This document shows, piece by piece, positions 6,649-21,339 of a stretch of 64,000 bases of DNA; positions within the stretch are counted from its first letter, which is position 1; each line of letters starts with the position of its first letter. Where the stretch lies: assembly GCA_030604405.1 (NCBI GenBank), contig JAUVVY010000019.1, positions 1-64,000 of the forward strand. The letters are read 5' to 3'. The notes beneath the pieces were generated by a model, which did not search any database, was not told the origin of the DNA, and saw nothing but the letters and a program-made list of their open reading frames with translations. Made by a program: the position numbers and the translations under genes. The DNA is from a bacterium (GTDB taxonomy: Bacteria > Armatimonadota > Zipacnadia > Zipacnadales > UBA11051).

Positions 6649-6957
6649 TTAGTCCGTCGGGCCGTGGTCTTCCAAAAGCTCGACGATGTCTGTGTGGCCC
6701 GCACGCTCTGCCAGTTGCAGCGGAGTGTGGCCCTGGGGATCGTGCGCATTAAGGTCGGCGCCGTGTTCCAGCAGAAGTTCTACTACTTCGCGAGAGCTGC
6801 TCAGGACCGCGAAGTGCAGCGCAGAAGGCAGGCCTCCGCCTTTGATCTGAACGTTCGGGCTCGCCCCGTCGGCCAGCAGCCTCCTGACTTCTGCCGTACT
6901 TCCCTCCGCGCAGGCCTGAAGTAACTTGCCCGACAGAATGACTTGTCGCAAATCCAT
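6649..6957 (-). CDS. small ankyrin-repeat protein
   Basis: The 102-residue protein has about three ankyrin repeats, seen as SALHFAVLSSSREVVELLLEH and TPLQLAERAGHTDIVELLED. The ATG at 6957 is preceded by GGAGG with a 9-nt spacer, so the longer upstream reading is not used. No signal peptide is visible. It lies 138 bp after a second ankyrin gene on the same strand, with which it may be cotranscribed. Ankyrin repeats mediate protein-protein binding; no partner can be named from the sequence. Confidence 0.85.
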   Translation of the reverse strand: MDLRQVILSGKLLQACAEGSTAEVRRLLADGASPNVQIKGGGLPSALHFAVLSSSREVVELLLEHGADLNAHDPQGHTPLQLAERAGHTDIVELLEDHGPTD

Positions 6958-7094
6958 GATCGGTCGCCTCCATAGCTTCGGATGGCATGATGTTTCCGGC
7001 AGTTCGGTCGCCCGGTGTTCCTGCCAGCCGCTTTCGACATTGACGGGCCAGCCTGCCTCGACGTGGCGTAGGCTGTGATCGCCCCCGTGTGTGA

Positions 7095-7685
7095 TCACCT
7101 CCAGAACTGCCACCATTTGCCCGCCTGCTGACGCAGCAGCTCGACCATTTCGGAGGGCCCCTCGCTGCGCACCATACTCAGCGGAGTCCTCCCGTCAGAG
7201 TCCTTCACCCGTACTCGGGCTCCCCGCTGCAACAACAGCCTCGCCAGTTCGATGGAGCCACTGTAGGCCGCGTAGTGAAGCGGAGTCGTGCCTCCGGCCT
7301 TGGCCTTGACATTAGCGCCATGCTCTAATAGCACTCGCGCCACTTCGACGTAGCCTGGCTCTGCTGCATCGTGCAACGGCGTCCTGCCATGGACGTCTTT
7401 CGCGTTGGGGTCGGCGCCCTGCTGCAAGAGAAGCGTAGCTACCTCAGGGTGGCCACCATAGGCCGCAAAATGAAGCGGGGTCTGGTACATCGAGTTCGTG
7501 ACGTTGACAGCAGCGCCCGCCTCCAAGAGCACCTTCGCCACTTCAGTAGAGCCACTAAAGCCTGCCCCGTATAGCGCGGTCTGGCCCCGCTCGTCTCTGT
7601 CGTCCGGATCCGCTCCCTGGGCGAGCAGACGCGTGACCTCTTCTGCATCGCCCTTTGCAGCCGCACGCTGTAACTGCTGACTCAT
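7095..7685 (-). CDS. ankyrin-repeat protein with Trp-rich tail
   Basis: The 196-residue protein is almost entirely six consecutive ankyrin repeats (for example TPLHFAAYGGHPEVATLLLQQ and TPLHYAAYSGSIELARLLLQ). It ends in an unusual aromatic tail, KWWQFWR. GGAGG lies 8 nt before the ATG at 7685. No secretion signal is visible, so it is probably cytoplasmic. It is followed by a shorter ankyrin gene and preceded, on the same strand, by a lipoprotein gene. The tail could contact membrane or a protein partner, but that is a guess. Confidence 0.9.
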   Translation of the reverse strand: MSQQLQRAAAKGDAEEVTRLLAQGADPDDRDERGQTALYGAGFSGSTEVAKVLLEAGAAVNVTNSMYQTPLHFAAYGGHPEVATLLLQQGADPNAKDVHGRTPLHDAAEPGYVEVARVLLEHGANVKAKAGGTTPLHYAAYSGSIELARLLLQRGARVRVKDSDGRTPLSMVRSEGPSEMVELLRQQAGKWWQFWR

Positions 7686-8911: not shown

Positions 8912-9844
8912 ATGCAAGCGCGCTGGGGGCGAAGCAGGTCTCCCGTGGAATCTGACCCGCTGTCGCGTGTTGTCACAGAGCGATGGCGTCGGCCCGGAAG
9001 CCTTATGGGGCTTTGCCTGTGGCGCGTTTTGCTCGTTGTCGGTATCTCAAGCGCGTTGCCGGTCTGGGCGCAAAACGGTTCCGGAGCCAGGCGGCCAAGC
9101 GGCGTAGTCCCCGACATGTTCAGGCTTTCTCCCGCCATTCCCGGAACCTCAGAATATGAAATGCGGCAGAGGGCCTCTGAGTTGGAGGCCGTGCTGGCCG
9201 ACCTGGATGCGATCGTCTCGGCGCGAGTAAGCCTGCGGCAGGCAACCGGTGAGGGCGAGGCACCTGCAGCCGCCGTGCAACTCGAACTTACCGCGGACGC
9301 AGCGTGGTCGGCGCAACTTTCGCAGACCGTTGTGGCCCTTGTCAGTCAGCTTGAGCCGGAACTAACCCTGGAAGCAATCCTCATCACAGACAGACAAGGG
9401 CGCGTTCTGTTTGACAAGGGCCGCATTGCCACGGCTCCCGATCCCGCGCCGCAACCCCAGCCGACGGCGCTGGTACAGACGCTATCGGGGCCGGTGGCAA
9501 TTGCCGTGGGCCTGGCACTGGGCCTGGTCGTCGTGCTTGGTTGGTGGTTGTTCGGAGCCAGGCCGGCTTTACGGGTGCGTGGACAGCCGTCGGCCCCGGA
9601 GGGCCCGTGGACATTCCTCGCCACTGTCGAACGCTCTAAGCTCAAGCGCGTGCTGAGGGCGCAGCGTCCCGAGCTTATCGGTGCGATCGCGGCTCAACTC
9701 GATGACCGCACCGCCGCACGCCTGCGGCCGGTGCTGAGAGCTCTTGACCATACGGCGATACCCGCGCCGGATCGGGCGATACACCCTGAAATAGCAGACG
9801 CCTTGGCAGTCAAAATCAGGCAGATGCTTGCGGAAGAGGAATAG
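8912..9844 (+). CDS. fliF: minimal FliF-like ring protein with FliG-like C-terminal segment
   Basis: The 310-residue protein opens the export cluster, where fliF and fliG normally stand. A hydrophobic segment lies at about 34-50. One ring-building (RBM2/YscJ-like) domain follows at about 81-170, with the FliF-type pattern ASELEAVLADLDAIVSARVSL. A second membrane segment lies at about 193-214. The cytoplasmic tail (232-275) contains VERSKLKRVLRAQRPELIG, which resembles the FliG pattern of a charged helix followed by HPQTIALIL. Normal FliF has about 530 residues with RBM1, RBM3 and a beta-collar, all absent here. Normal FliG has about 330 residues, with a torque domain that is also absent. The start with GAGGGG upstream was chosen; an ATG at 9005 is possible. 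The fusion is inferred by eye. Confidence 0.6.
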   Translation: MQARWGRSRSPVESDPLSRVVTERWRRPGSLMGLCLWRVLLVVGISSALPVWAQNGSGARRPSGVVPDMFRLSPAIPGTSEYEMRQRASELEAVLADLDAIVSARVSLRQATGEGEAPAAAVQLELTADAAWSAQLSQTVVALVSQLEPELTLEAILITDRQGRVLFDKGRIATAPDPAPQPQPTALVQTLSGPVAIAVGLALGLVVVLGWWLFGARPALRVRGQPSAPEGPWTFLATVERSKLKRVLRAQRPELIGAIAAQLDDRTAARLRPVLRALDHTAIPAPDRAIHPEIADALAVKIRQMLAEEE

Positions 9845-9868
9845 TAGGTAAGAAGAGGGGGGTTGCAA

Positions 9869-10480
9869 TTGCCTCGTGTTTTCAAGGCCGATGAACTACC
9901 CGAAGGCGGTCGCATCAGGCCCTTAGGAAAAACGTTGACGGAAGCGACCAAGGAGCCGGAAGCGAGAACGCAAGCGGAGCCGCAGCCTGCCGAGCCGGCA
10001 GTAGAAGCGGCACGAGTAGAGCCACATCCCCCGCAGGTGTCGGCGGATAGCCTCGAGCGCGTCCAGCGCCTCCTACACGAAGTTGTCGCCAGCTTCGGCC
10101 GGCAGCGTAATCAACTGCTCCAGCAGCTCAAACCTGGGCTGGCGAAGCTGGTAATCGCCGTGGCGCGGCAGATCGTAGGGCGCGAACTGAGCGCCGATGA
10201 AGACGCGATCAAGCGGGTGATGGACACTGCGCTTGCGGAGCTGGGTCGCTCGGGCCGCGTCGTCGCCCGGGTCAGCCCGGAAGATGCGCCGGTTCTGCGC
10301 GAAGCGATCGAGCAGGATCAGTGGGCGCCGCCGCCGATGGTCGAACTCGAAATCGTCGCCGATGCCTCCGTGACCAGAGGCGGGTGTGTGCTGGAAAGCG
10401 ATTACGGGCAGGTTGATGCGACTATTGAGACGCAGATCGCTGAACTGGCCAGGCTTTTGGACAATAGCGAAAACCAATAG
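9869..10480 (+). CDS. fliH: flagellar-type export stator protein FliH
   Basis: This 203-residue protein starts at the TTG at 9869, 6 nt after AGGGGGG; a TTG at 9863 would abut that site. The first 60 residues are low-complexity and rich in Glu, Pro and Ala, followed by a helical region. The C-terminal domain has the FliH/SctL signature: VVARVSPEDAPVLREAI and then LEIVADASVTRGGCVLES with a QVDATIETQI end. FliH dimers tether the FliI ATPase to the C-ring and regulate it. It sits 24 bp after the fliF-like gene and 15 bp before fliI, as in classical flagellar operons. Confidence 0.85.
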   Translation: MPRVFKADELPEGGRIRPLGKTLTEATKEPEARTQAEPQPAEPAVEAARVEPHPPQVSADSLERVQRLLHEVVASFGRQRNQLLQQLKPGLAKLVIAVARQIVGRELSADEDAIKRVMDTALAELGRSGRVVARVSPEDAPVLREAIEQDQWAPPPMVELEIVADASVTRGGCVLESDYGQVDATIETQIAELARLLDNSENQ

Positions 10481-10495
10481 ACTTAGGGGATCAAG

Positions 10496-11866
10496 TTGAG
10501 CGCGCGGCGCGACACGACAGTTGAGATTGACTTCGGCAACTGGCTGGCGGAGCGGACGGCCAAGGTGCAACAGGGCCGGCACTTTCGCAGGCTGGGCACC
10601 GTGCAGGAGATCGTCGGCTTGACCATGGTCTCTCAGGGGCCACCGGCGCAGGTGGGGGAGACCTGCTATATCAAGCCGGCGATGGACCGGCCCACCGTCT
10701 GCGCGCAGGTGGTCGGGTTCCGCGACAGCCGGGTGCTGCTAATGCCGTTGGGCGACACCCGTGGCATCCAGCCCGGCTGCGAGGTAGTGGCAAGCGGCGA
10801 GCAGCTCTCCGTGCCGGTCGGGCCGGAGTTGCTGGGCCGCGTCATCGACGGGTTTGGCGCACCGCTGGACGGACGTGGTCCGCTGGATGCCGCGCGTCGC
10901 CGCAGGATATATGCCGATGCGCCGCGGCCGATGGAGAGGACCAGGATGACGCAGCCGATGTATCTTGGCGTCCGCGCCATTGATGCTTTGCTGACCTGCG
11001 CCAAGGGCCAGCGGGTGGGTATCTTTGCGGGCAGCGGCCTGGGCAAGAGCGTGCTGCTGGGGATGATCGCGCGCAACAGCAGCGCCGATGTCAATGTTAT
11101 CGCGCTGGTGGGCGAACGCGGCCGGGAGGTGCTGGACTTCGTCGAAGATAAAATGGGCCCGGCGCTGGAGCGTTCGGTCGTAGTGGTCGCGACCGCCGAC
11201 GAGCCCGCTCTGATCCGCTTGCAGGCCGGTTTTGCCGCCACAACAATAGCCGAGGAATTCCGCGACCAGGGCGCTCATGTGATGCTGATGATGGATTCTA
11301 TTACCCGGCTGGCGCGGGCGCAGCGGGAAGTGGGGCTGGCCGCGGGCGAGGTTCCGGCCAATCGCGGCTTCCCGCCTTCGGTTTACGCGATGATACCGAC
11401 CCTGGTGGAGCGGGCCGGGCCGTCAGCAGACGGGACCATCACAGGCATGTACACGGTGCTGGTCGAGGGCGATGACATGCTTGAGCCGGTGGCTGATACG
11501 GTGCGCGCCACTCTCGACGGCCATATCGTGCTGTCGCGGGACCTGGCTGAAAAGGGCCGGTATCCTGCCATAGATGTCAATGCGAGCATCTCGCGCTCGA
11601 TGGTGCAGGTGGTGGACGAAGCGCACTGGGAGCTGAGTGAAACGGCGCGCCGGCTGCTGCGGACATACGCCGACATCGAGGACCTGGTTGCCGTCGGCGC
11701 CTACGAGGCAGGCGGCGACCCCTGGGTGGATGTGGCCGTGGCCATCAACCCGCAGATGCGGGAATTCCTGAGCCAGGGCATTGAGGAACAGGCTGACCCG
11801 GTTGATGCGCTGACGCGTCTGCAGCAACTGATTAGGGCCGCCGAAGAAATTATCGGCGGCAGGTGA
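10496..11866 (+). CDS. fliI: flagellar-type export ATPase FliI
   Basis: The 456-residue protein is full length for the family. It is a hexameric F1-beta-like ATPase that energises substrate unfolding at the type III export gate. The Walker A loop is GSGLGKSV at 179-186, and the Walker B region is HVMLMMDSITRLARAQREV. The downstream AAGEVPANRGFPPSVYA stretch matches the FliI/SctN family. Leu replaces the more usual Val in the P-loop. It starts with TTG at 10496 after an AGGGGA. It lies between fliH and fliJ with short spacings, consistent with one operon. This is the most conserved member of the cluster. Confidence 0.96.
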   Translation: MSARRDTTVEIDFGNWLAERTAKVQQGRHFRRLGTVQEIVGLTMVSQGPPAQVGETCYIKPAMDRPTVCAQVVGFRDSRVLLMPLGDTRGIQPGCEVVASGEQLSVPVGPELLGRVIDGFGAPLDGRGPLDAARRRRIYADAPRPMERTRMTQPMYLGVRAIDALLTCAKGQRVGIFAGSGLGKSVLLGMIARNSSADVNVIALVGERGREVLDFVEDKMGPALERSVVVVATADEPALIRLQAGFAATTIAEEFRDQGAHVMLMMDSITRLARAQREVGLAAGEVPANRGFPPSVYAMIPTLVERAGPSADGTITGMYTVLVEGDDMLEPVADTVRATLDGHIVLSRDLAEKGRYPAIDVNASISRSMVQVVDEAHWELSETARRLLRTYADIEDLVAVGAYEAGGDPWVDVAVAINPQMREFLSQGIEEQADPVDALTRLQQLIRAAEEIIGGR

Positions 11867-11873
11867 TGAGCTC

Positions 11874-12314
11874 TTGAAAGAAGCCAGCAGGCTTGCGCGT
11901 CTGGCCAGACACTTCGCGATGGAGCACAAGCGGCTTGAGCTCGCAAAGCGGGCCTCTGAGACGGCCATGCGCCGGGTACAAGCGCGTCAGAGACGCTTGG
12001 CCGCCGAGCAGACCACGGCTGCGGAGGCCGAGCCGCCGCGCAGAAACGCCGTGGCATGGATTAGGTGGCGCGGAGCCTACCTGGACAGGACAGGCAATCA
12101 GAGCAAACGGCTTGCCGCCAGCCAGGAGCAGCTCAGGATCGCCCTGGCGCTGCAGAACAGACGCCTGGTGCGAAGCTCGGGCCGCCAGCGCGGAATAGAA
12201 AAGCTGCTGGCTGCTGCGCACAGCGCCGAGCAAGGACGCGTCGAAAGTATGCAGCAGGCTGAGGCCGACCAGCGCGCCGGCATATCGCGCCTCGGAAGAG
12301 ACGATGTGATATGA
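11874..12314 (+). CDS. fliJ: flagellar-type export chaperone/stalk FliJ-like
   Basis: The 146-residue product is almost wholly predicted helical and rich in Arg, Ala, Gln and Glu, as expected for the coiled-coil FliJ that inserts into the FliI hexamer and contacts FlhA. Primary sequence similarity is low, as usual for FliJ; the call rests on size, composition and position directly after fliI. It starts with TTG at 11874, 7 bp after the fliI stop, and its TGA overlaps the ATG of the fliM-like gene (ATGA). A Trp-containing central stretch (VAWIRWRGAYLD) is unusual for the family. Confidence 0.65.
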   Translation: MKEASRLARLARHFAMEHKRLELAKRASETAMRRVQARQRRLAAEQTTAAEAEPPRRNAVAWIRWRGAYLDRTGNQSKRLAASQEQLRIALALQNRRLVRSSGRQRGIEKLLAAAHSAEQGRVESMQQAEADQRAGISRLGRDDVI

Positions 12315-13174
12315 AACAGACAACTGAGACTGTGCGGCCGCTTGCGATGCCACGCGCCGACGCGCCCGGACATCTGGACCGGCTAGTTCTGCAGCGCTGG
12401 GCCGAGCGCATGGCCGCAGCATGTGGGCCCGAGCTTGCACAAAGAGCCGCCCTTCCCGCCCGCCAAATCAACTGCACAGCCAGCGTCCTGCCCAGCGGCG
12501 AGCAGTGGCAGCACCCGCCCGACGCAGCATGGCTGGCGGTGCAGTGGGGTCCGGTTCCCGGCCGGATCGCCATCCCAATGCCACTGGCGGTCTCTCTGGT
12601 GGCGCGGTGCCTGGGATATGATAGCTGCTCTGAACAGCCGCTTGCTGCCCTCGATTACGAGGTGCTCATCGTGTGGCTGCGGCCGGTGCTGAACTGGATG
12701 CAGGAGACGGCCAACCTGCGTGACCGCGCGACACTGAGCGCTGCCGAAGCCGACCTCGAAACACTTGGCAGCGGGCCGGCGGTGCTGTTGAGCATTTCCA
12801 TGACCGTGGGAGCCGTCCGGGGGACGTGGCAGTTGGTAGTGCCGTGGGAGGCACTGCGCGAGCAACTGCGCGTCGAGGCCGCGCTGCGTGGAGGTCGGGT
12901 GAGAGCGGAGGTGGCGGCTCTGGGCGGCCTGCCAGTGACTGTCGAGGCGATCATCAGCGGCGGCACGCTGGCGCTTCGTGAGAGCTTTGAACTGGAAGTG
13001 GGTGATGTGATAGCTCTCGATTGTGACCTGACCACCGCCGTAGAACTGCGGGTCGGCAGTCAAGCCGTGGCGGTGGGCAGACTGGGAAGCCATGAGGCGC
13101 AATGGGCCGTGCGTATAAGCGAGATGCAATGGCGTACAAGTGCCCGGAGCACTGAGGAGGCAAGCAATGACTGA
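12311..13174 (+). CDS. fliM: FliM-like C-ring protein, lacking the CheY-binding N-terminus
   Basis: The 287-residue protein is shorter than typical FliM (about 330). The middle (about 60-190) is a degenerate CheC/FliM-type domain. The end (about 200-275) is a SPOA domain (VTVEAIISGGTLALRESFEL, LEVGDVIAL). The N-terminal motif that binds phospho-CheY in motile bacteria (LSQ-EIDALL type) is absent: the protein begins MKQTTETVRPLAMPRADAPG. It overlaps fliJ by 4 bp and fliN by 8 bp. The organisation resembles a secretion-system SctQ cytoplasmic platform as much as a rotary switch. The assignment rests on the SPOA domain plus order. Confidence 0.7.
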   Translation: MKQTTETVRPLAMPRADAPGHLDRLVLQRWAERMAAACGPELAQRAALPARQINCTASVLPSGEQWQHPPDAAWLAVQWGPVPGRIAIPMPLAVSLVARCLGYDSCSEQPLAALDYEVLIVWLRPVLNWMQETANLRDRATLSAAEADLETLGSGPAVLLSISMTVGAVRGTWQLVVPWEALREQLRVEAALRGGRVRAEVAALGGLPVTVEAIISGGTLALRESFELEVGDVIALDCDLTTAVELRVGSQAVAVGRLGSHEAQWAVRISEMQWRTSARSTEEASND

Positions 13175-13496
13175 CGAAAACGATCCCAACGAGGGAGCGA
13201 GTGGCAGTGAGGGTGCCGACAGTGAAAGCAGTGCGCTGAGTTCTGTGGTGCTGGCGGCTCTGGGCGATATGTCGCTTGCGGTGGAGGTGCGCGTAGGTAG
13301 TGCGAAGATCAGCCTGCGGGAGCTCCTGGACTGCACGCCGGGGACAGTCCTGGCGCTTGACGCTCCCGTCGGGGGACTGGTTGACCTGCTGGTTGGCGGT
13401 CAGCTTGTGGCACGCGGCGAGTTGGTCGCAATCGACTCGCAGGTTGGGCTGCGGATCGTAGAGATCGTCACGGAGGGCGGCAGCAATGAGGCCTAA
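13167..13496 (+). CDS. fliN: FliN-like SPOA-domain protein
   Basis: The 109-residue protein starts at the ATG at 13167, 6 nt after GAGGAGG, and overlaps the fliM-like stop. An acidic, Ser-rich N-terminus (about 30 residues) precedes a SPOA domain. Within it, AVEVRVGSAKISLRELLD, PGTVLALD and RGELVAIDSQVGLRIVEIV follow the FliN/SctQ-C pattern. FliN forms the lower C-ring and docks FliH-FliI. It ends inside the start of fliO (11-bp overlap), supporting translational coupling. Confidence 0.85.
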   Translation: MTDENDPNEGASGSEGADSESSALSSVVLAALGDMSLAVEVRVGSAKISLRELLDCTPGTVLALDAPVGGLVDLLVGGQLVARGELVAIDSQVGLRIVEIVTEGGSNEA

Positions 13497-13857
13497 AACC
13501 CACACAGTCATCATTTTGCTGCTCAGTGCAGCGCCCGCCTGGTGCCAAGTTGACACGCCGCTGTCCGCCCACGAGCCGACCTACCATCTGCTCCGCGCGC
13601 TGGCCAGTCTGCTGATCGTCATCGTCTTGATTCTTCTCACCTACTATGCTCTGAAGAAGCTGTCGTGGCCTGCGCCCGGCGCGCTCACCGAAGGGCCGCT
13701 TGAACTGCTGCAGGTTTTGCCCGTGGGGCCGGGCCGGCGCATCTATCTAATCGGCCTGAAGGGGCGCGCCTACGTCATCGCATGGTCACAGGAAAGTGTC
13801 GCGCTTATAGGCGAATTGGAAAGGTCAGAGGTTGATGAGCAGCTCCCTGACGGCTAA
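13486..13857 (+). CDS. fliO: export apparatus assembly protein FliO
   Basis: The 123-residue protein has a signal-like N-terminus (VIILLLSAAPAWC), one strong membrane segment (about 37-56) and a small cytoplasmic domain with GPLELLQVLPVGPGRRIYLI and YVIAWSQES. This is the usual FliO pattern (LELLERLPLGPKRSLLLV type). FliO helps assemble the FliP ring and is absent from injectisomes, so its presence argues that the cluster is flagellar in ancestry. The ATG overlaps the fliN stop, and the gene overlaps fliP downstream. Confidence 0.85.
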   Translation: MRPKTHTVIILLLSAAPAWCQVDTPLSAHEPTYHLLRALASLLIVIVLILLTYYALKKLSWPAPGALTEGPLELLQVLPVGPGRRIYLIGLKGRAYVIAWSQESVALIGELERSEVDEQLPDG

Positions 13858-14578
13858 GGCGCGGGTGCTACAGGGCGCACTTCTGACTGCGGCCTGTGGG
13901 CTGCTTGCCCAGCCAGTAGCGGCCCAGGAAGGGATCAGCATTGATTTCGGGTCCGGGGAGTCGGGAAGCTACGCGCGACTGCTCTTGCTGTTTGCCGCCA
14001 TCGCGCTGGCCCCGGCGGTGCTGGCCGTCGTCACCAGCTTCGCCCGCATCGCGATCGTCCTTTTCTTTATGCGCGCCGGCCTCGGGGCCAACGACATCCC
14101 GCCGACCGTGGTGATTATTGGCCTGGCCATTTTCCTCACCGTCTTCACCATGGCTCCGCAGATGGAGCAAGCCTATTCCAAGGCGATCGCCCCTTATCTG
14201 GCCGGCGAGTTGGAGCTGGATGGGGCCAGCAGCATCTTTGTGGAAGAACTGCGGGGGTACATGGGCGCGCACACTCGCCCGGCTGATTTGGCCGTGTTCG
14301 AGGAATTCAGGCCGGAGCGGGCTGCGGATCAGGCAGTGCCGATGGGCACGCTCGTGCCCGCCTTCATCATCAGCGAGCTACGCGCCGCCTTCCTGATCGG
14401 CTTTATCATCTACCTGCCGTTTCTGGTCATAGACCTGGTGGTGGGCAGCACGCTGGCGTCAGTGGGATTGGTCAGCTTGCCCGCGCCGGCCATCGCTTTG
14501 CCGTTCAAGGTGCTGCTTTTCGTGATGGTGGACGGCTGGGCGCTGCTGACGCAGTCGCTGCTGGCGACGATACTCTAG
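13835..14578 (+). CDS. fliP: export gate protein FliP
   Basis: The protein has 247 residues from the ATG at 13835; a TTG at 13832 is in frame immediately before. It carries a cleavable signal peptide, four membrane segments and the family signatures VVTSFARIAIVLFFMRAGLG and VPAFIISELRAAFLIGF. FliP forms the core of the FliP5-FliQ4-FliR1 export channel. It overlaps fliO by 23 bp. Downstream, where fliQ is expected, the coding strand flips: the stop TAG shares bases with the stop of an antisense lipoprotein gene, and fliQ only resumes about 1 kb later. Confidence 0.95.
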   Translation: MSSSLTAKARVLQGALLTAACGLLAQPVAAQEGISIDFGSGESGSYARLLLLFAAIALAPAVLAVVTSFARIAIVLFFMRAGLGANDIPPTVVIIGLAIFLTVFTMAPQMEQAYSKAIAPYLAGELELDGASSIFVEELRGYMGAHTRPADLAVFEEFRPERAADQAVPMGTLVPAFIISELRAAFLIGFIIYLPFLVIDLVVGSTLASVGLVSLPAPAIALPFKVLLFVMVDGWALLTQSLLATIL

Positions 14579-15411
14579 GGTATGTAGTCCATGACAATGT
14601 GGAATCGCAGCAGGCTACCGGCCAGCCGGAATTCGAGGTCTATATCTTTCATGACCGGCCCATGATTCGCGGCCACATCGGTATTGACTGTCCCAGTGCA
14701 TGCGCCCTGTTCGCCCTGAAAGTTAATCGTGGCCTGCATAGTCTGTACGCAGGTCACCCACTCAACGTCCGTACCGGTGCCTGCAATGTTTTCAGGGAGC
14801 CGGTACTGTACCTTGAAGTTTGTCGTAGTGCCACTGAGCGTGTCGTTGTTGGAGTAAAACGGTATCGTGGTCAGCGGCACGGAATGAGTCGCTGCACGGC
14901 CGGTAATTACGGGATTGCGCAAGAATGGTCGGTTGTCGGACACCGGTGTGGGTATGGCCGTGGGCGGGCCTGAGGCTGTTCGTACTGTGTGGTTGGCAAT
15001 GCCGTCGCCATCAGTGTCATAGGAAGCGAAGTATTCGTTCCAATCGCGTAGGCCGCCTTGAGTAGATGAGAACAGATAACCGAGGTATTGACCCAGCCGA
15101 GAGGCGGGGTCCAAGCCAACATCCGGCACCGCAATTTCGGGGAAGTCGTCTGTTATGGTCGCGATCTGGATCAGACTGCCGCCGGTGCCCGGAACGACAT
15201 CAGTCACCTGGCGGGTGGATTGCTCGCTCGCGGTGACAGTCTGGTTCCCATAGTAAGTCGTGACATCCATTTGATAATTCCATCGGGTGCCTAGTGCCGT
15301 CGGCAAGAAATCGCCCTCCAGGCTGTGGTATGGAATGCCCCGTCCGCCACAGCCGCTAAGTGCAACTATTGCAATGATGGCACACAAGATCAAAATGGTC
15401 GCAGCACGCAT
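14575..15411 (-). CDS. lipoprotein of unknown function inserted between fliP and fliQ
   Basis: The 278-residue protein has a lipoprotein signal peptide ending ALSGC, so it should be membrane-anchored outside the cytoplasm. GGAGG lies 6 nt before the ATG. The mature part starts with FLPTALGTRWNYQMDVTTYYG, a beginning typical of secreted beta-rich proteins of unknown role, and contains a calcium-loop-like segment DTDGDGIANH near residue 133. I recognise no catalytic motif. It is the only gene on the minus strand within the export cluster, and it overlaps the fliP stop convergently by 4 bp. It has its own predicted promoter (15464-15492). Confidence 0.85.
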   Translation of the reverse strand: MRAATILILCAIIAIVALSGCGGRGIPYHSLEGDFLPTALGTRWNYQMDVTTYYGNQTVTASEQSTRQVTDVVPGTGGSLIQIATITDDFPEIAVPDVGLDPASRLGQYLGYLFSSTQGGLRDWNEYFASYDTDGDGIANHTVRTASGPPTAIPTPVSDNRPFLRNPVITGRAATHSVPLTTIPFYSNNDTLSGTTTNFKVQYRLPENIAGTGTDVEWVTCVQTMQATINFQGEQGACTGTVNTDVAANHGPVMKDIDLEFRLAGSLLRFHIVMDYIP

Positions 15412-15575: not shown

Positions 15576-15821
15576 TTGTTGCGCCACGTGTTGTTGATCG
15601 GGCTCTATCTGTCTTTGCCGCCTATGGTGGCGGCGGCGCTGGCGGGATTTGCCGTGGGACTGCTGCAGTCGGCTACCGGTCAAAACGACCAGGCCGTGTC
15701 TTTCGTTCCGCGCATCCTGGCCGCCGGTGCCGCTGTCATGGTCTTCGGTATGTGGTTAATCTCTCTGGCTACCGACTTCTGGTACAGATTGTGGACCAGC
15801 CTGCCTGAACTGGTGCGATAG
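15576..15821 (+). CDS. fliQ: export gate protein FliQ (start uncertain)
   Basis: The protein has at least 81 residues, with two membrane segments and the FliQ pattern LPPMVAAALAGFAVGLLQSAT followed by SFVPRILAAG. It is part of the FliP-FliQ-FliR channel. The only standard start is the TTG at 15576. However, the frame stays open back to 15546 and encodes VTNATEAVELL directly before LRHVLL. That matches the usual FliQ N-terminus, and a GGGAGGGAG lies about 8 nt before a GTC codon at 15549. Either the N-terminus is shortened, or the start is a mutated GTG or a sequence error. The ATG at 15545 is out of frame. Confidence 0.85.
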   Translation: MLRHVLLIGLYLSLPPMVAAALAGFAVGLLQSATGQNDQAVSFVPRILAAGAAVMVFGMWLISLATDFWYRLWTSLPELVR

Positions 15822-15833
15822 GGCTAATTCGCT

Positions 15834-16571
15834 ATGCCACAGCTATTTGACGCAGTGCCACTTTGGGGACTTGTATTTGCCCGCGTCGCCGGCATCGCCC
15901 TGTTGGTCCCACCGATCGGCTTGCAGCATGTGCCGATTACTATCAGGATTGCCGCCGCCGGCATCATATCCGTGCCGCTCTACTACACCGCGGGCGGCTT
16001 GGAGGCAGCCGTCCCGGGCTTGGGCACCTACACGCTATGGGTGGCAAAGAACCTGGCAGTCGGTCTGATAATCGGCGGGGCGGTAGCTTTGGTCTTGTGG
16101 GCCGCCGTGATGGCCGGCACGTATCTGGAGAGGCTGGCCGGCTGGTCGTCGCCAACGCCCCAGGCAGGCATCGCCAGCTCACTGTTGTATCTGCTCTGCG
16201 CGGTTCTTTTTGTGCTAATAGACGGCCACCACGCCGTATTTCGGGTCGTGGCAGCCTCATTTGAGAGCGTCCCACCCGGGCCGGGGTCATGGGCCGCATT
16301 GGCCGAGCGAGCCCTGCTGCTGTTGCCTGCGAGGATGTTCCTCGTGTCATTGATGATCGCCGCGCCAGCGTTGCTAGCCGCCTTGTTGGCGATGACGCTG
16401 CTAGCCGCGGCGGAGCGGGTGTCGCTGGAGCTGGCGGCGAGCGGAATCAGCCGCATCACAGCGCCGCTGTTGGTAACCGTCGCGCTGATCGCCGCTCTGC
16501 CGGCAGTAGCTTATGTCGCGCTCTGGCAACTGCAGGTGATGTTGAATCAGGTCGCGGCCCTGCTGGGTTAG
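15834..16571 (+). CDS. fliR: export gate protein FliR
   Basis: The 245-residue polytopic protein has about six membrane segments and FliR-type landmarks: an N-terminal FARVAGIALLVPPIG, a central AGTYLERLAGWSSPTPQAG plug-like stretch and LLPARMFLVSLMIAAPALLA. It forms the single FliR subunit of the export gate. It begins 12 bp after fliQ. Sequence divergence is noticeable, but topology and order leave little doubt. Confidence 0.9.
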   Translation: MPQLFDAVPLWGLVFARVAGIALLVPPIGLQHVPITIRIAAAGIISVPLYYTAGGLEAAVPGLGTYTLWVAKNLAVGLIIGGAVALVLWAAVMAGTYLERLAGWSSPTPQAGIASSLLYLLCAVLFVLIDGHHAVFRVVAASFESVPPGPGSWAALAERALLLLPARMFLVSLMIAAPALLAALLAMTLLAAAERVSLELAASGISRITAPLLVTVALIAALPAVAYVALWQLQVMLNQVAALLG

Positions 16572-16644
16572 CAGGGCGGCCGTGTGTGGTGCGGTCGGCG
16601 TTGCAGGCCGAACACTTTCGTCGCACTTCGTAACGAGGCCGATT

Positions 16645-17373
16645 ATGGCCGAACAATGGCCCAAGCGCTACGATCCCAGCGACCGCAAGTTAGAATACCT
16701 GCGCAGGCGGGGCAGCCATCCGTCCAGCCCAATGGCCTCGGCGCTACTGGCCCTTGCCTGTGGCCTGGGAGCCGTGCTGCTTGTTGGTCAGCGGGCCATG
16801 CTAGAGCCGCTTTCGGAATTGGTCGGTCTCAGCCTGGGTTCCCCTCAGATGCCCGCCGAGGCGCTATTGCAGCACACGGCAAAGGCTCTTAGCGTAGCCG
16901 GCCTCGCGATCCTGCCGGTGGGGCTGGCGACCCTGGCCGGGTGGCTGCTTGGCAACAGCCTGCAGACCGGCTTTGCGCTCAGGTGGCCGTGGTCATCCCC
17001 CTCAGGGCTGACTTACTACACGATCCCGCGCCGCCACAGTGCCGACACCGCGGTTCGCGGGATACTCGCCGCCCTGCTGCTAGCAGCCACCATCGTCACC
17101 GTAGCCGGTGTCTGCCAGGCCGCTGCGGAACTGCCACTAGACGCAGAGCTGGCCTTCAGCCGGATCTGTTACGCGTACCTGCGGCCCGTCCTGAGCACGT
17201 TCTTGCCGGCGCTTGTGGCGGTAGTGATCCTGGATGTGGTGTGGAGTCGGTACAGCTATGTGACCGCGGCGCGCATGACAGAGAGCGAACGGCGGCGGGA
17301 AGTTGAGGAAACTGGCATCGGCTGGCTGACAAAGCGACGCCGGGAAAGACTGCGGCGGCACGGAGGTAGATGA
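16645..17373 (+). CDS. flhB: FlhB membrane domain only, lacking the autocleavage domain
   Basis: This 242-residue protein starts, by my choice, at the ATG at 16645 (CGAGG upstream). It opens with a FlhB-like basic segment (DRKLEYLRRRGSHPSSP), has about four membrane segments, and ends with MTESERRREVEETG followed by KRRRERLRRHGGR. That tail is the equivalent of the linker helix after the membrane domain. Family members normally have 350-380 residues and continue into a cytoplasmic domain that cleaves itself at NPTH to switch export specificity. Here the stop comes just before that domain, and flhA starts within the stop codon (ATGA), so no room is left for it. Confidence 0.88.
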   Translation: MAEQWPKRYDPSDRKLEYLRRRGSHPSSPMASALLALACGLGAVLLVGQRAMLEPLSELVGLSLGSPQMPAEALLQHTAKALSVAGLAILPVGLATLAGWLLGNSLQTGFALRWPWSSPSGLTYYTIPRRHSADTAVRGILAALLLAATIVTVAGVCQAAAELPLDAELAFSRICYAYLRPVLSTFLPALVAVVILDVVWSRYSYVTAARMTESERRREVEETGIGWLTKRRRERLRRHGGR

Positions 17374-19382
17374 TGGACATCTTCCGACACATCTCCGCCC
17401 AGATGGTGGTCGCCCTGGCGGCCGCCCTGGCGATGTTGGCCCTGATTGTTCCACTTCCGGGCTGGGCGCTGGACCTGCTGTTGTCCGCCAATCTGGCGAT
17501 TTCGCTGGCCGTCTTCGCACTGGCGTTGCTGGTCAGGAGGCCGGTGCGGCTCAGCGGCCTGCCCGGCCTGATCGTGGTCTCAAGTCTGGGCCGTGTGGTC
17601 CTGGCTCTGGCCGTGGCTCGGAATATTCTACTGGGCGGCACCGGCGGCGAGGTGGTCTCGGCGCTTGGGGCCATCGGCGCGGGCGGCGGCTGGCTGGTCG
17701 GAATTGTGGTGGTGCTGATGGTGGCGCTGATAGACCTGCTGGTTATCGCCGTCGGCATGGTGCGGGTCTCTGAGGTCCTGGCCCGGTTTGCCCTCGACGC
17801 CTTGCCGGGACGACAGATGGGCGTTGATGCCGCCGTCGCCGATGGCCGTCTGACCGCCCAGGAAGCGAGCGATAAGCAGCAGCAGATTGACGACGAATGC
17901 GCTTTCTACGGGGCTATGGACGGGGCTGCTCGGTTTCTGCGTGGGGACTGCACTGCCACACTCGTCATTGTCGCTGCTACTCCACTCGTGGCGCTTCTGA
18001 TTGGCGAGTCGGCCGTTGCAACGACAGGTGGTGACCTGGCCAGTTACCTGCAGTTAGCGGCCGGGCACGGGCTGGTGATTCTGTTGCCGGCATTGCTGAT
18101 CGGCGGAGCCGGGGCGATGGTTCTGGCGCGCGCAGGCAGTGAAGAGACGTTTGGCTCAGAAATTGCAGGTGAACTGTTGGTGCAGCCGATGGCCCTGGGC
18201 GCCGCCGCCGTAGTGCTCTTGGTAATTGCCCTCATCTCGCCTACAGCGCGGCTCCCGCTGATCGTCATGGTACTGGTGATCGCAGGGGCAGCGGTGGCGT
18301 TCAGAAGACAGTCGGGTGGACCGCTGCGATCGGACGTGTCCGGGCAGCAACGTGACGGTGAGAACCGCATTGAGATCGGCCTGGGATTGATCCATCTTAT
18401 CCAACACGAAGAGTTTGAGACTATGCTCGCCGAGCTGCGACAACGAGTGCAACGACGAATCGGCTTGCCCGTGAAGCCTTTTGTCGCCACCGACAGCAGC
18501 GAGCTGGGCATGAATCAGGTTGCCCTGGTGGTCAACGGGCAGCTCACCGGCCAATGCACGGTTCGTCCCGGGCGGCTGCTTGCCGTTGGGACGTCAGCAG
18601 AAGATTTCGCCGGAGCCGATGAGGCCCGTTGTGGCGTGCGAAATGTCGGCGCGTGGATCGTTCCTGACGATGAAGAGACAGCCCGCCGCGATGGGATAGA
18701 GGTGGTCGAGCCGCTGCCGGCGCTACTGATGCTGGTGGAAGATAGGCTGCTGGCCAGCGCCGACGAACTCTTCGACGCCCGGCGCGCTGCAGAGATGCTG
18801 GGTGAAATGGCAACAACGCATCCGGAGCTGGTCGAGGCAGCGCAGGCTCAGGGGCTGGACGCGGTACTGCTGCGCCGAATTGGGACGGCGCTGCTGGCCG
18901 ATGGCGTTAGCTTGCAGAACTCTCCGGGCATCCTTGAAGGCGCCGTTGAGGCCCTGCGCGCGGGCAGTGACGAAGATGGCGTGATCGAGGCAGTGCGCAA
19001 ACGACTTAGTCGGAGCATCTGCCAGGCCGCCGGCCCTGACGGGACTATCCTGGCCATTGAGTTGGCGCCGGCGGTGGCCGAAGAGCTGGCTGTCAGCTAT
19101 GCCAACGGTCAACTGGCGATCCCACCACAACGCGCTGAGCGGTGGCTGCGACTGCTTGCCGAACATGGCCGGGAGACGTTGCGCAGAAAACACCCAATTG
19201 CCGTGCTCTGCGACGCGCAACTACGCCCCGCGCTAAGTAAGCTGATTGCTGAGAGCGGACAGAAGCTGATGGCGATTGCATTTGACGAACTGGCACCTGA
19301 TTACTCGGTCGAGCGGCTGGGAATCATTACTGAGGCTGAGATATCCGGCCAGGAGCAGGTTGCCAAGCGGGCCGAGGAGTGA
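17370..19382 (+). CDS. flhA: export gate protein FlhA
   Basis: The 670-residue protein is near normal length. The N-terminal half has about eight membrane segments and the FHIPEP-family signature RVSEVLARFALDALPGRQMG (about 130-150), followed by DGRLTAQEAS. The C-terminal cytoplasmic half (from about 335) forms the nonameric ring that receives chaperone-substrate complexes; it is more diverged than the membrane part. It overlaps flhB by 4 bp and the sigma-factor gene by 4 bp (GTGA), so the three are probably translationally coupled. Confidence 0.95.
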   Translation: MMDIFRHISAQMVVALAAALAMLALIVPLPGWALDLLLSANLAISLAVFALALLVRRPVRLSGLPGLIVVSSLGRVVLALAVARNILLGGTGGEVVSALGAIGAGGGWLVGIVVVLMVALIDLLVIAVGMVRVSEVLARFALDALPGRQMGVDAAVADGRLTAQEASDKQQQIDDECAFYGAMDGAARFLRGDCTATLVIVAATPLVALLIGESAVATTGGDLASYLQLAAGHGLVILLPALLIGGAGAMVLARAGSEETFGSEIAGELLVQPMALGAAAVVLLVIALISPTARLPLIVMVLVIAGAAVAFRRQSGGPLRSDVSGQQRDGENRIEIGLGLIHLIQHEEFETMLAELRQRVQRRIGLPVKPFVATDSSELGMNQVALVVNGQLTGQCTVRPGRLLAVGTSAEDFAGADEARCGVRNVGAWIVPDDEETARRDGIEVVEPLPALLMLVEDRLLASADELFDARRAAEMLGEMATTHPELVEAAQAQGLDAVLLRRIGTALLADGVSLQNSPGILEGAVEALRAGSDEDGVIEAVRKRLSRSICQAAGPDGTILAIELAPAVAEELAVSYANGQLAIPPQRAERWLRLLAEHGRETLRRKHPIAVLCDAQLRPALSKLIAESGQKLMAIAFDELAPDYSVERLGIITEAEISGQEQVAKRAEE

Positions 19383-20146
19383 TAGGACTGCGACCCGAAC
19401 AAGCCGGCGTGCGAACCGGTCATAAAGGCCCCAGTGCCGCTCGGCAGCGGCTGATAACCGACAACGTTGACCTGGTACACTACATCGTGAGCCGAATCGC
19501 GATCCACCTGCCGGACAGAGTGGACAGAGACGACTTGGTCAGCGCCGGTCTTATCGGGCTTGTCAAGGCGTCCGACCGCTTTGACGAAAAGCGGGGTATC
19601 AAGTTCCGCACGTACGCGAGCAGTGTCATTCGTGGCGAAGTGATGGAGTCGTTGCGTGCCAAGGACTGGGCGCCCCGCAGCGTCCGGCGCAAGGCCCGTC
19701 AACTGGCGGGCGCTGTGGGGGAGCTGGAGGGGCGTCTGGGCCGGCCGGCCACGGACGCCGAAATCGCCGACAATCTCGATATTAGCATTGACGAATACTA
19801 TGACCTGCTGTCCGAGACCAGCGGCGCTAACTTAGTGTCGCTGGACGAACTCCTGGACGAATGGCAGCTAGACGCCGGCGACGGCATGGCTCAACCGGCC
19901 GCCGACGACAGCGCCAACCCCGCCGAAGTGCTGGAGCACGAGGCCCTGCTTGAAGTGGTGGCCGTAGCAGTGGAGCGCCTGCCCGAACGCGAGCGGCTGG
20001 TCGTGGGGCTGTACTACCAGGAAGAACTCACGCTCCAGGAAATCGGCCAGATTCTGGGTGTCACTGAATCGCGCGTCTGCCAGATTCACACCCAGGCCGT
20101 GACCCGTCTGCGGGCCACTTTGCACCGTGAACTGGGCCTGCCGTAG
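19379..20146 (+). CDS. fliA: sigma-28 family RNA polymerase sigma factor (FliA/WhiG/SigD)
   Basis: The 255-residue protein has region 2 (DRDDLVSAGLIGLVKASDRFD, then GIKFRTYASSVIRGEVMESLR), region 3 (RPATDAEIADNLDISIDEYY) and region 4 (LPERERLVVGLYYQEELTLQ and a VTESRVCQIHTQA helix). This is the SigD/FliA layout. It starts with GTG overlapping the flhA stop. In flagellated bacteria such a factor drives late genes such as flagellin; none is in this window. No adjacent anti-sigma factor gene (flgM) is visible. Confidence 0.93.
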   Translation: MIGLRPEQAGVRTGHKGPSAARQRLITDNVDLVHYIVSRIAIHLPDRVDRDDLVSAGLIGLVKASDRFDEKRGIKFRTYASSVIRGEVMESLRAKDWAPRSVRRKARQLAGAVGELEGRLGRPATDAEIADNLDISIDEYYDLLSETSGANLVSLDELLDEWQLDAGDGMAQPAADDSANPAEVLEHEALLEVVAVAVERLPERERLVVGLYYQEELTLQEIGQILGVTESRVCQIHTQAVTRLRATLHRELGLP

Positions 20147-20280: not shown

Positions 20281-21339
20281 TTGCGGAAATCCACAGTCCT
20301 AATTGCAGTCTGTTTGAGCGTCATCGTAGTCGTATTGTTCGCGGTTTTAGGCGGCTGCGGCAGCCAGCCAATGGCAGTGGTCAACGGAATTAAAGTCACC
20401 CGCGCCGAATTCAACAAGCGGCTTGAGCAAACTCAGGGCAGGCAGGTTCTGGGCGACCTGATTCTGCGGGCGCTAGTCGAGGACGCCTTCGCTAAATCCG
20501 GCCTTACGCTGACTGACGAGGAGCTTGAGGGCGAGGTCGAACAGGCCAAGTCCTCCGCCCCGGATGAGGCCGCCTGGCAGCAGTTGCTGGCCGCACAGGG
20601 GATAGATGAGCTGGAATTGCGGGACTATTTCGCCTTCCGGATAAAGGTCAGGAAGCTGGCGACCAAGGACGTCAAGGTCACGGAGCAGGCGCTCGAGAAG
20701 TTCTTTGAGGAGAATAGACAGTTCTTCGACGAGCCTGCGACGGTTGAGTTCTCCGAAATTGTCTTGAGTCAGGAGGCCGAGGCCGAAAAACTTGCCCAGC
20801 AACTGAAAGATAGCCCCGAGACTTTCGGGGACCTCGCGCGGCAACATTCGCTTTCGCCAACACGCGACCGAGGTGGGCGCCGGGGCAAGGTACCTGTCGA
20901 ACGCATTATCCCGGTTGCAGTCCGGACCGCCATCGAGAAAATGGCGGTCGGAAAGATCACTGGGCCGCTCAGTGCCGAGGGCAACTGGTACCTGGTCAAG
21001 CTGGATGCGCGCCACGAGGCGAAGCACGCGACGCTTGAGGAAGTCAAGGGCGATGTCGAGGAGCAATACACACTCCGGCAGGCCAAGTCCGAGCAGGAAC
21101 TGATGAACGAGCTGCGCAAGAACGCGCAGGTGACCGTAATTGATCCGGAGTACCAGATGCTGAACGACTACTTCCGGCCCGAACCCACCAGTCTGCCGAC
21201 CTTTGGCGCCGGGGAAGAGCCCAGGCCCGAGCAAGAGCCGGCCAGGGAGAAACCCAAGCCTGACGAGGCCTCCGAGAAAGACAAACAGGCCGAGAAGGCG
21301 CACCAGGAGCCGGCAGACAAGCAGCCTGAGACGCAGTAG
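20281..21339 (+). CDS. parvulin-type foldase lipoprotein (PrsA/SurA-like)
   Basis: The 352-residue protein starts with TTG at 20281, 10 nt after AGGAG. A lipoprotein signal peptide ends VLGGC. A SurA-N-like helical region (about 30-140) is followed by a parvulin domain (about 150-250: FSEIVLSQEAEAEKLAQQL, FGDLARQHSLSPTRDRGGRR and a GPLSAEGNWYLVKL end). The last 50 residues are a charged Pro/Glu/Lys-rich tail. Such proteins assist folding after export and isomerise prolyl bonds. It lies upstream of mazG on the same strand with 77 bp between. Confidence 0.88.
   Translation: MRKSTVLIAVCLSVIVVVLFAVLGGCGSQPMAVVNGIKVTRAEFNKRLEQTQGRQVLGDLILRALVEDAFAKSGLTLTDEELEGEVEQAKSSAPDEAAWQQLLAAQGIDELELRDYFAFRIKVRKLATKDVKVTEQALEKFFEENRQFFDEPATVEFSEIVLSQEAEAEKLAQQLKDSPETFGDLARQHSLSPTRDRGGRRGKVPVERIIPVAVRTAIEKMAVGKITGPLSAEGNWYLVKLDARHEAKHATLEEVKGDVEEQYTLRQAKSEQELMNELRKNAQVTVIDPEYQMLNDYFRPEPTSLPTFGAGEEPRPEQEPAREKPKPDEASEKDKQAEKAHQEPADKQPETQ

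Follow-up and report, generated by a model that had tools for sequence, protein, structure and literature searches.

The type III systems closest to the locus analysed here are the export apparatus of the flagellum, composed of the FliPQR-FlhB-FlhA gate and of FliHIJ, and the injectisome (NF-T3SS, for example that of rhizobia). Proteins of the FlhB/SctU family (PF01312) start with a four-helix membrane domain followed by a linker helix; the injectisome member SctU has a C-domain, and in E. coli FlhB the NPTH site of the self-cleaving C-domain is at residue 268. The linker was observed to thread through FlhA and to act as the coupling element (PMC13308203, a preprint); the FlhB loop is required for secretion in the systems that PMC7064499 tested. 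In Salmonella the C-domain carries the docking site for hook protein; when it is deleted, the gate is locked late and hook protein is no longer exported (PMC13344023). In Salmonella devoid of rod-hook genes and of Flk, selection for export of FlgM, a late substrate, yielded FlhB C-domain mutations, one of them a stop at residue 258, and this laboratory gate worked only with overexpression (Chevance et al. 2026, PMC13344023); in the same organism sigma-28 acts as the chaperone for FlgM export (Aldridge 2006, as cited in PMC13344023). No description of a stable, flagellum-independent type III form lacking the FlhB C-domain was found in the open-paper literature, and the Zipacnadia paper names a T3SS solely in connection with ordinary flagella.

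The locus and the end of its flhB gene

The window, i.e. the whole stretch of 64,000 nucleotides that was analysed, belongs to a genome of 4.37 Mb (96.9% complete) from the Zipacnadia, a class of Armatimonadota whose bacteria are uncultured. Its type III cassette comprises the following features.

8912-9844, plus strand: short fliF; signal/TM segment, single RBM2 domain, TM segment and probable FliG-middle-like C-terminal domain (PF01514, AlphaFold model, Foldseek)
9863-10480, plus strand: fliH (PF02108, E 7e-24)
10496-11866, plus strand: fliI export ATPase (PF00006, PF18269, TIGR01026); Walker A, GER and arginine motifs intact
11874-12314, plus strand: probable fliJ, 146 residues, from position and length; no Pfam match
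12311-13174, plus strand: fliM/sctQ-like, one C-terminal SpoA domain (PF01052, E 7.5e-13); no FliM middle domain
13140-13496, plus strand: fliN, SpoA domain (PF01052, E 2.3e-19); true start uncertain
13486-13857, plus strand: fliO (PF04347)
13832-14578, plus strand: fliP (PF00813, E 2.6e-63)
14575-15411, minus strand: lipoprotein gene between fliP and fliQ, lipobox in the sequence
15576-15821, plus strand: fliQ (PF01313, E 3.2e-16)
15834-16571, plus strand: fliR (PF01311, E 1.1e-25)
16645-17373, plus strand: flhB without C-domain, here flhB(dC); its product has four TM helices and the linker helix and lacks NPTH and C-domain (PF01312, positions 3-235 of 335)
17370-19382, plus strand: flhA, full length (PF00771, E 4.8e-117)
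19379-20146, plus strand: sigma-28 (FliA/WhiG; TIGR02479 over the cut-off)
20281-21339, plus strand: PpiC-type periplasmic foldase lipoprotein (PF13145)

The preliminary description of this DNA had proposed that FlhB is truncated past the linker helix and before the NPTH site, and that flhA starts inside the flhB stop codon; both observations hold. The 242-residue product matches PF01312 (E 3.2e-15, over the cut-off) through the N-terminal four-helix membrane domain and the linker helix of the family, and in an alignment that took in 44 full-length FlhB rows it finishes as a basic tail after MTESERRREVEETG, corresponding to about E. coli residue 250 and lying about 18 residues upstream of NPTH. 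In agreement with this, a profile from 22 relatives covers the solved PDB FlhB chains at residues 7-250. The stop is overlapped by the flhA ATG at 17370 (ATGA; ...GGTAGATGATGG...). Upstream, the frame is open to a GTG at 16582, and the ATG at 16645 agrees with the relatives. The membrane helices are present in the predicted model; a fold search with it gave no match, the isolated chain being uninformative for a protein that folds on FliPQR.

FlhB(dC) retains G24, S29, Q110 and D207 together with the linker residues M221, E225 and E229, and keeps the linker that corresponds to the FlhA-threading element. The loop round the FliQ ring has roughly kept its length, and the motif conserved there in full-length FlhB is mostly gone (E. 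coli P129, G132, R135, S138, K147 and K151).

The comparison of flhB length among relatives that had been suggested revealed the same C-domain-less protein in 25 of the 46 genomes of the class examined, distributed over six families and extending beyond the order of the window. All these proteins stop about 10-22 residues past the conserved linker MTRxELxxExRETEG, most of them with a basic tail. The nearest relative, G001, has FlhA and FlhB 91% identical to those of the window; in this pair flhB has a dN/dS of 0.33, with 0.27 for its final 45 codons, and the neighbouring genes have values of 0.07-0.31, which indicates that the cassette is under purifying selection (0.07-0.33 overall). Since the same stop recurs across independent assemblies and flhB has this dN/dS, the shared end point is far beyond chance. 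A sequencing or assembly frameshift concealing a normal C-domain, the outcome that the preliminary description had itself named as fatal to its claim, is therefore already refuted by the independent assemblies and has virtually no probability left: nothing was found in its favour, 24 other genomes have the identical end, several families share the overlap of flhA with the stop, and no PF01312 C-domain occurs in any frame of the window genome.

The self-cleaving NPTH domain is absent from the gene, from every relative with the short form and from the rest of the window genome. It had been suggested that the domain could be separately encoded, and a divergent stand-alone or unrelated protein might provide it in trans; indeed, stand-alone C-domains (PF01312 about 261-335, most of about 107 residues) were found in six genomes of the phylum, and the window genome is 3% incomplete. 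However, they occur only where a full-length FlhB is present and the dC cassette is absent, and a PF01312 search of the window genome to E 10 detected neither a second FlhB nor a stand-alone C-domain, the sole extra match (E 1.4) being a transmembrane stretch. Supply in trans is thus very unlikely, and the full second flhB that would also have spoken against the truncation was not found in this genome. The stand-alone domains resemble FlhX/YlqH-like proteins, in which the two halves of FlhB are likewise parted; these add a second C-domain, whereas the dC form has none, and the two forms were not found in one genome. The idea that the export gate lacks a specificity switch is consequently supported, the C-domain being absent in 25 genomes with no trans replacement in that of the window.

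A PF01312 search of 291 genomes of the phylum gave no clear dC form outside the class among the matches listed, which include a few weak single ones, as in G232 (best E 1.5e-17). A match in an actinomycetotal sequence (L034) was discarded as chance similarity, since the protein fails to align as FlhB. In several full-length flagellar FlhB proteins of the phylum (L039, L030, L070, L072, L076, L020) the NPTH site reads NPVH, NPVE, NPTR, NPTE or NPQH.

The cassette compared with flagella and injectisomes

The gene order short fliF, fliH, fliI, fliJ-like, fliM/sctQ-like, fliN, fliO, fliP, fliQ, fliR, flhB(dC), flhA, sigma-28 is conserved over six families. In the genus g5 the cassette is found in three loci with every part present, and in G037, from a related genus, the stretch from fliF to fliP is unbroken. 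The lipoprotein gene splitting fliP from fliQ is confined to family f1, where five relatives, G001 among them, have it in the same place, while the PpiC-type gene is conserved next to the cassette in both f1 and f7. In L047 the match of the fliJ counterpart to FliJ is no better than E 0.057. An amidohydrolase-like gene is found between fliO and fliP in family f3 (L044:7994-8773), and two adjoining ankyrin-repeat-like genes lie near the cassette in the window, on the minus strand at 6649-7685.

The core of type III export is present, i.e. FliPQR, FlhA and FliHI with their catalytic and proton-path residues. In flagellar FlhA, a set of charged residues forms the proton path and a region around residues 456-490 the chaperone docking site. 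The cassette FlhA retains R85, R94, R147, R154, D158 and D199; K203 is replaced by R and D208 mostly by E, and D249 is not kept. Residues of about 456-490, including EPxF and T490, are not conserved, as in two rhizobial SctV proteins. The parts being homologous to known ones, the cassette is a variant of type III export.

FliF is more deeply changed. The cassette protein has about 260-370 residues across the relatives, and its model contains one periplasmic domain, placed by Foldseek on RBM2 of FliF, flanked by two membrane helices. For the cytoplasmic tail, profile comparison detects similarity to the FliG middle domain (E 8e-5, probability 62%), and the G041 tail matches FliG_M at E 1.1e-4, just below the cut-off. 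When whole genomes were searched with the profile, its tail part picked up a true FliG gene in G026 as well as probable FliG genes in G046 and G023 (E 3.7e-7 to 6.5e-4). The cassette FliF is thus probably a FliF-FliG fusion, and domain assignment shows it cut down to the gate-surrounding ring domain, to which a cytoplasmic domain, probably FliG-like, is joined. In known FliF-FliG fusion proteins the FliG part is likewise on the FliF C-terminus; the cassette protein differs in having only a middle-domain-like part, a one-RBM FliF and no motor proteins of its own.

The preliminary description regarded the gene as the organism's flagellar FlhB, an assignment that did not survive the comparison: its FlhB belongs instead to a type III lineage that is separate from and independent of the flagellum. 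In thirteen genomes the dC cassette is found together with a flagellum that has full-length FlhB; in nine others, that of the window included, it stands alone. Searches for the rod/hook domain (Flg_bbr_C) gave no match in these nine, and nothing over the cut-off was obtained in dC-only genomes for FliG_C, FliE, FliD_N or flagellin, while the same searches do detect all of them in flagellated relatives. In the FlhA tree all 21 sequences of the dC type fall on one side of a 100/100 branch, the other side holding the flagellar FlhA of the same genomes, those of Thermomicrobium and proteobacteria, and two rhizobial SctV; depending on the root, the clade may be sister to all the others or a fast-evolving offshoot. 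Gene content and phylogeny together show a cassette separate from the flagellum, which where it stands alone is accompanied by no genes for rod, hook, cap or filament.

Several genomes with this gene set alone and no filament genes, together with the degenerate FlhB loop, could be taken to mean that the cassette is the remnant of a decaying flagellum, whose genes persist by chance after loss of motility. Against this, relatives retain it beside an intact flagellum, the FlhA clade is deep and separate, dN/dS is 0.07-0.33, and gate parts, ATPase and proton path are all retained, so that decay is a highly improbable explanation.

Compared with the flagellar apparatus, the cassette has a homologous gate, ATPase, platform, sigma-28 and FlgM, and a flagellar gene order; it differs in lacking the FlhB C-domain and a rod, hook, cap, filament, FliE and separate FliG of its own, in having a FliF with one ring domain and a FliG-like tail, and in the separate clade of its FlhA. 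With the injectisome it has in common a small inner-ring protein, an SctQ-like platform protein with a single SpoA domain and the loss of the flagellar FlhA chaperone motif. However, SctU has a C-domain and the cassette FlhB has not, the cassette FlhA falls outside SctV, and RBM1 is missing. In the cassette loci examined no secretin or needle gene was recognised.

FlgM, sigma-28 and the proposed function

The sigma-28 gene directly follows the cassette flhA in every family with an intact region. FlgM is over the cut-off in every dC genome tested, so that these genomes have the sigma-28 and FlgM pair of the bacterial flagellum; G013, which is devoid of T3SS, gives sub-threshold matches only. 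Nearly all FlgM proteins begin with MxIDP, those of dC-only genomes included, and this motif is far from the sigma-binding part. FlgM lies outside the cassette in most genomes (in G042 it is 2.1 kb away), and in several families it follows a cluster coding for an HD/OB protein, an ECF sigma, a zinc-finger anti-sigma and an RseB/LolA-like protein (L118, L119, L121, L123, L127). A sigma-28-type promoter motif near the cassette genes is at or barely above chance.

In flagellum-less genomes a second FlgM-like gene lies beside an RpoN-like gene (L130:861-3380, L129:10066-11085). Small FlgN- or FliD_N-like genes close to it in family f3 (G008, G018) were considered as substrates and set aside, their similarity being too weak (E 0.01 or none).

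The dC-only genomes match the Salmonella combination, i.e. no rod and hook, an FlhB stop at about 250, sigma-28 and FlgM, and on this ground we infer a permanently single-mode exporter into the periplasm, with FlgM as its likely substrate. The reading that we favour, with moderate confidence, is that the gene encodes an FlhB which naturally has no C-domain and serves a dedicated type III exporter, independent of the flagellum, switchless and directed to the periplasm. FliPQR, FlhB(dC) and FlhA, together with FliHIJ and the FliM/N platform, would form an inner-membrane channel that draws its energy from FliI and from protons flowing through FlhA. With the FlhB C-domain missing, early substrates would have no docking site and there would be nothing to switch; the gate would be fixed in a single mode, exporting into the periplasm. 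FlgM would be the likeliest known substrate, with sigma-28 as its chaperone; once FlgM is exported, sigma-28 would be released and a regulon unrelated to motility activated. The "late mode" known from Salmonella may not apply here, because the FlhB loop and the FlhA docking motifs are lost.

The choice of FlgM is limited by the lack of a promoter signal and by G011, which has FlgM and a flagellum and no dC system. The same switchless exporter might instead serve other substrates, with FlgM and sigma-28 forming a separate circuit within the cytoplasm. In line with this alternative, FlgM is in most cases not linked to the cassette and frequently lies next to the ECF sigma/anti-sigma/RseB-like cluster, G011 has it in the absence of the dC system, and the flagellar docking motifs are gone from FlhA. 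The conservation of MxIDP at a distance from the sigma-binding part and the position of sigma-28 directly after flhA wherever the region is intact are points against it, and we regard it as possible, if rather doubtful. A complex that does not secrete at all, working as a membrane sensor or an ion channel controlling sigma-28, would agree with the proton-path residues retained and with the cassette loci, where neither an exit through the outer membrane nor an extracellular component could be recognised; FliI, FliH, FliPQR and FliO, kept with their motifs, are nevertheless hard to explain without translocation, which makes such a complex very unlikely.

Returning to the switchless FlgM exporter, a broader interpretation can be advanced tentatively: the cassette may represent a third type III lineage, neither flagellum nor injectisome, that works as a rodless, needleless and switchless inner-membrane exporter with a regulatory output. 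Passage of FlgM to the periplasm would couple the state of the envelope to non-motility sigma-28 genes, a link suggested by the frequent position of FlgM beside the ECF sigma/anti-sigma/RseB-like module.

The class thus offers a natural experiment on the role of the FlhB C-domain, in which the gate was kept and the domain dropped, and its evolutionary loss occurred in the same context as the laboratory selection in Salmonella, with the same FlhB region stopped, no rod or hook, and sigma-28 and FlgM present. The Salmonella deletion is laboratory-made and needs loss of Flk and overexpression (PMC13344023), whereas the dC form is stable throughout a class, with FlhB loop and FlhA further altered. 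It is equally a natural experiment on an appendage-less type III core, in which only the gate-surrounding part of the ring is left; should it indeed export, the cassette would approach the minimal working type III gate. Finally, the separate FlhA clade bears on the diversification of flagella and injectisomes.
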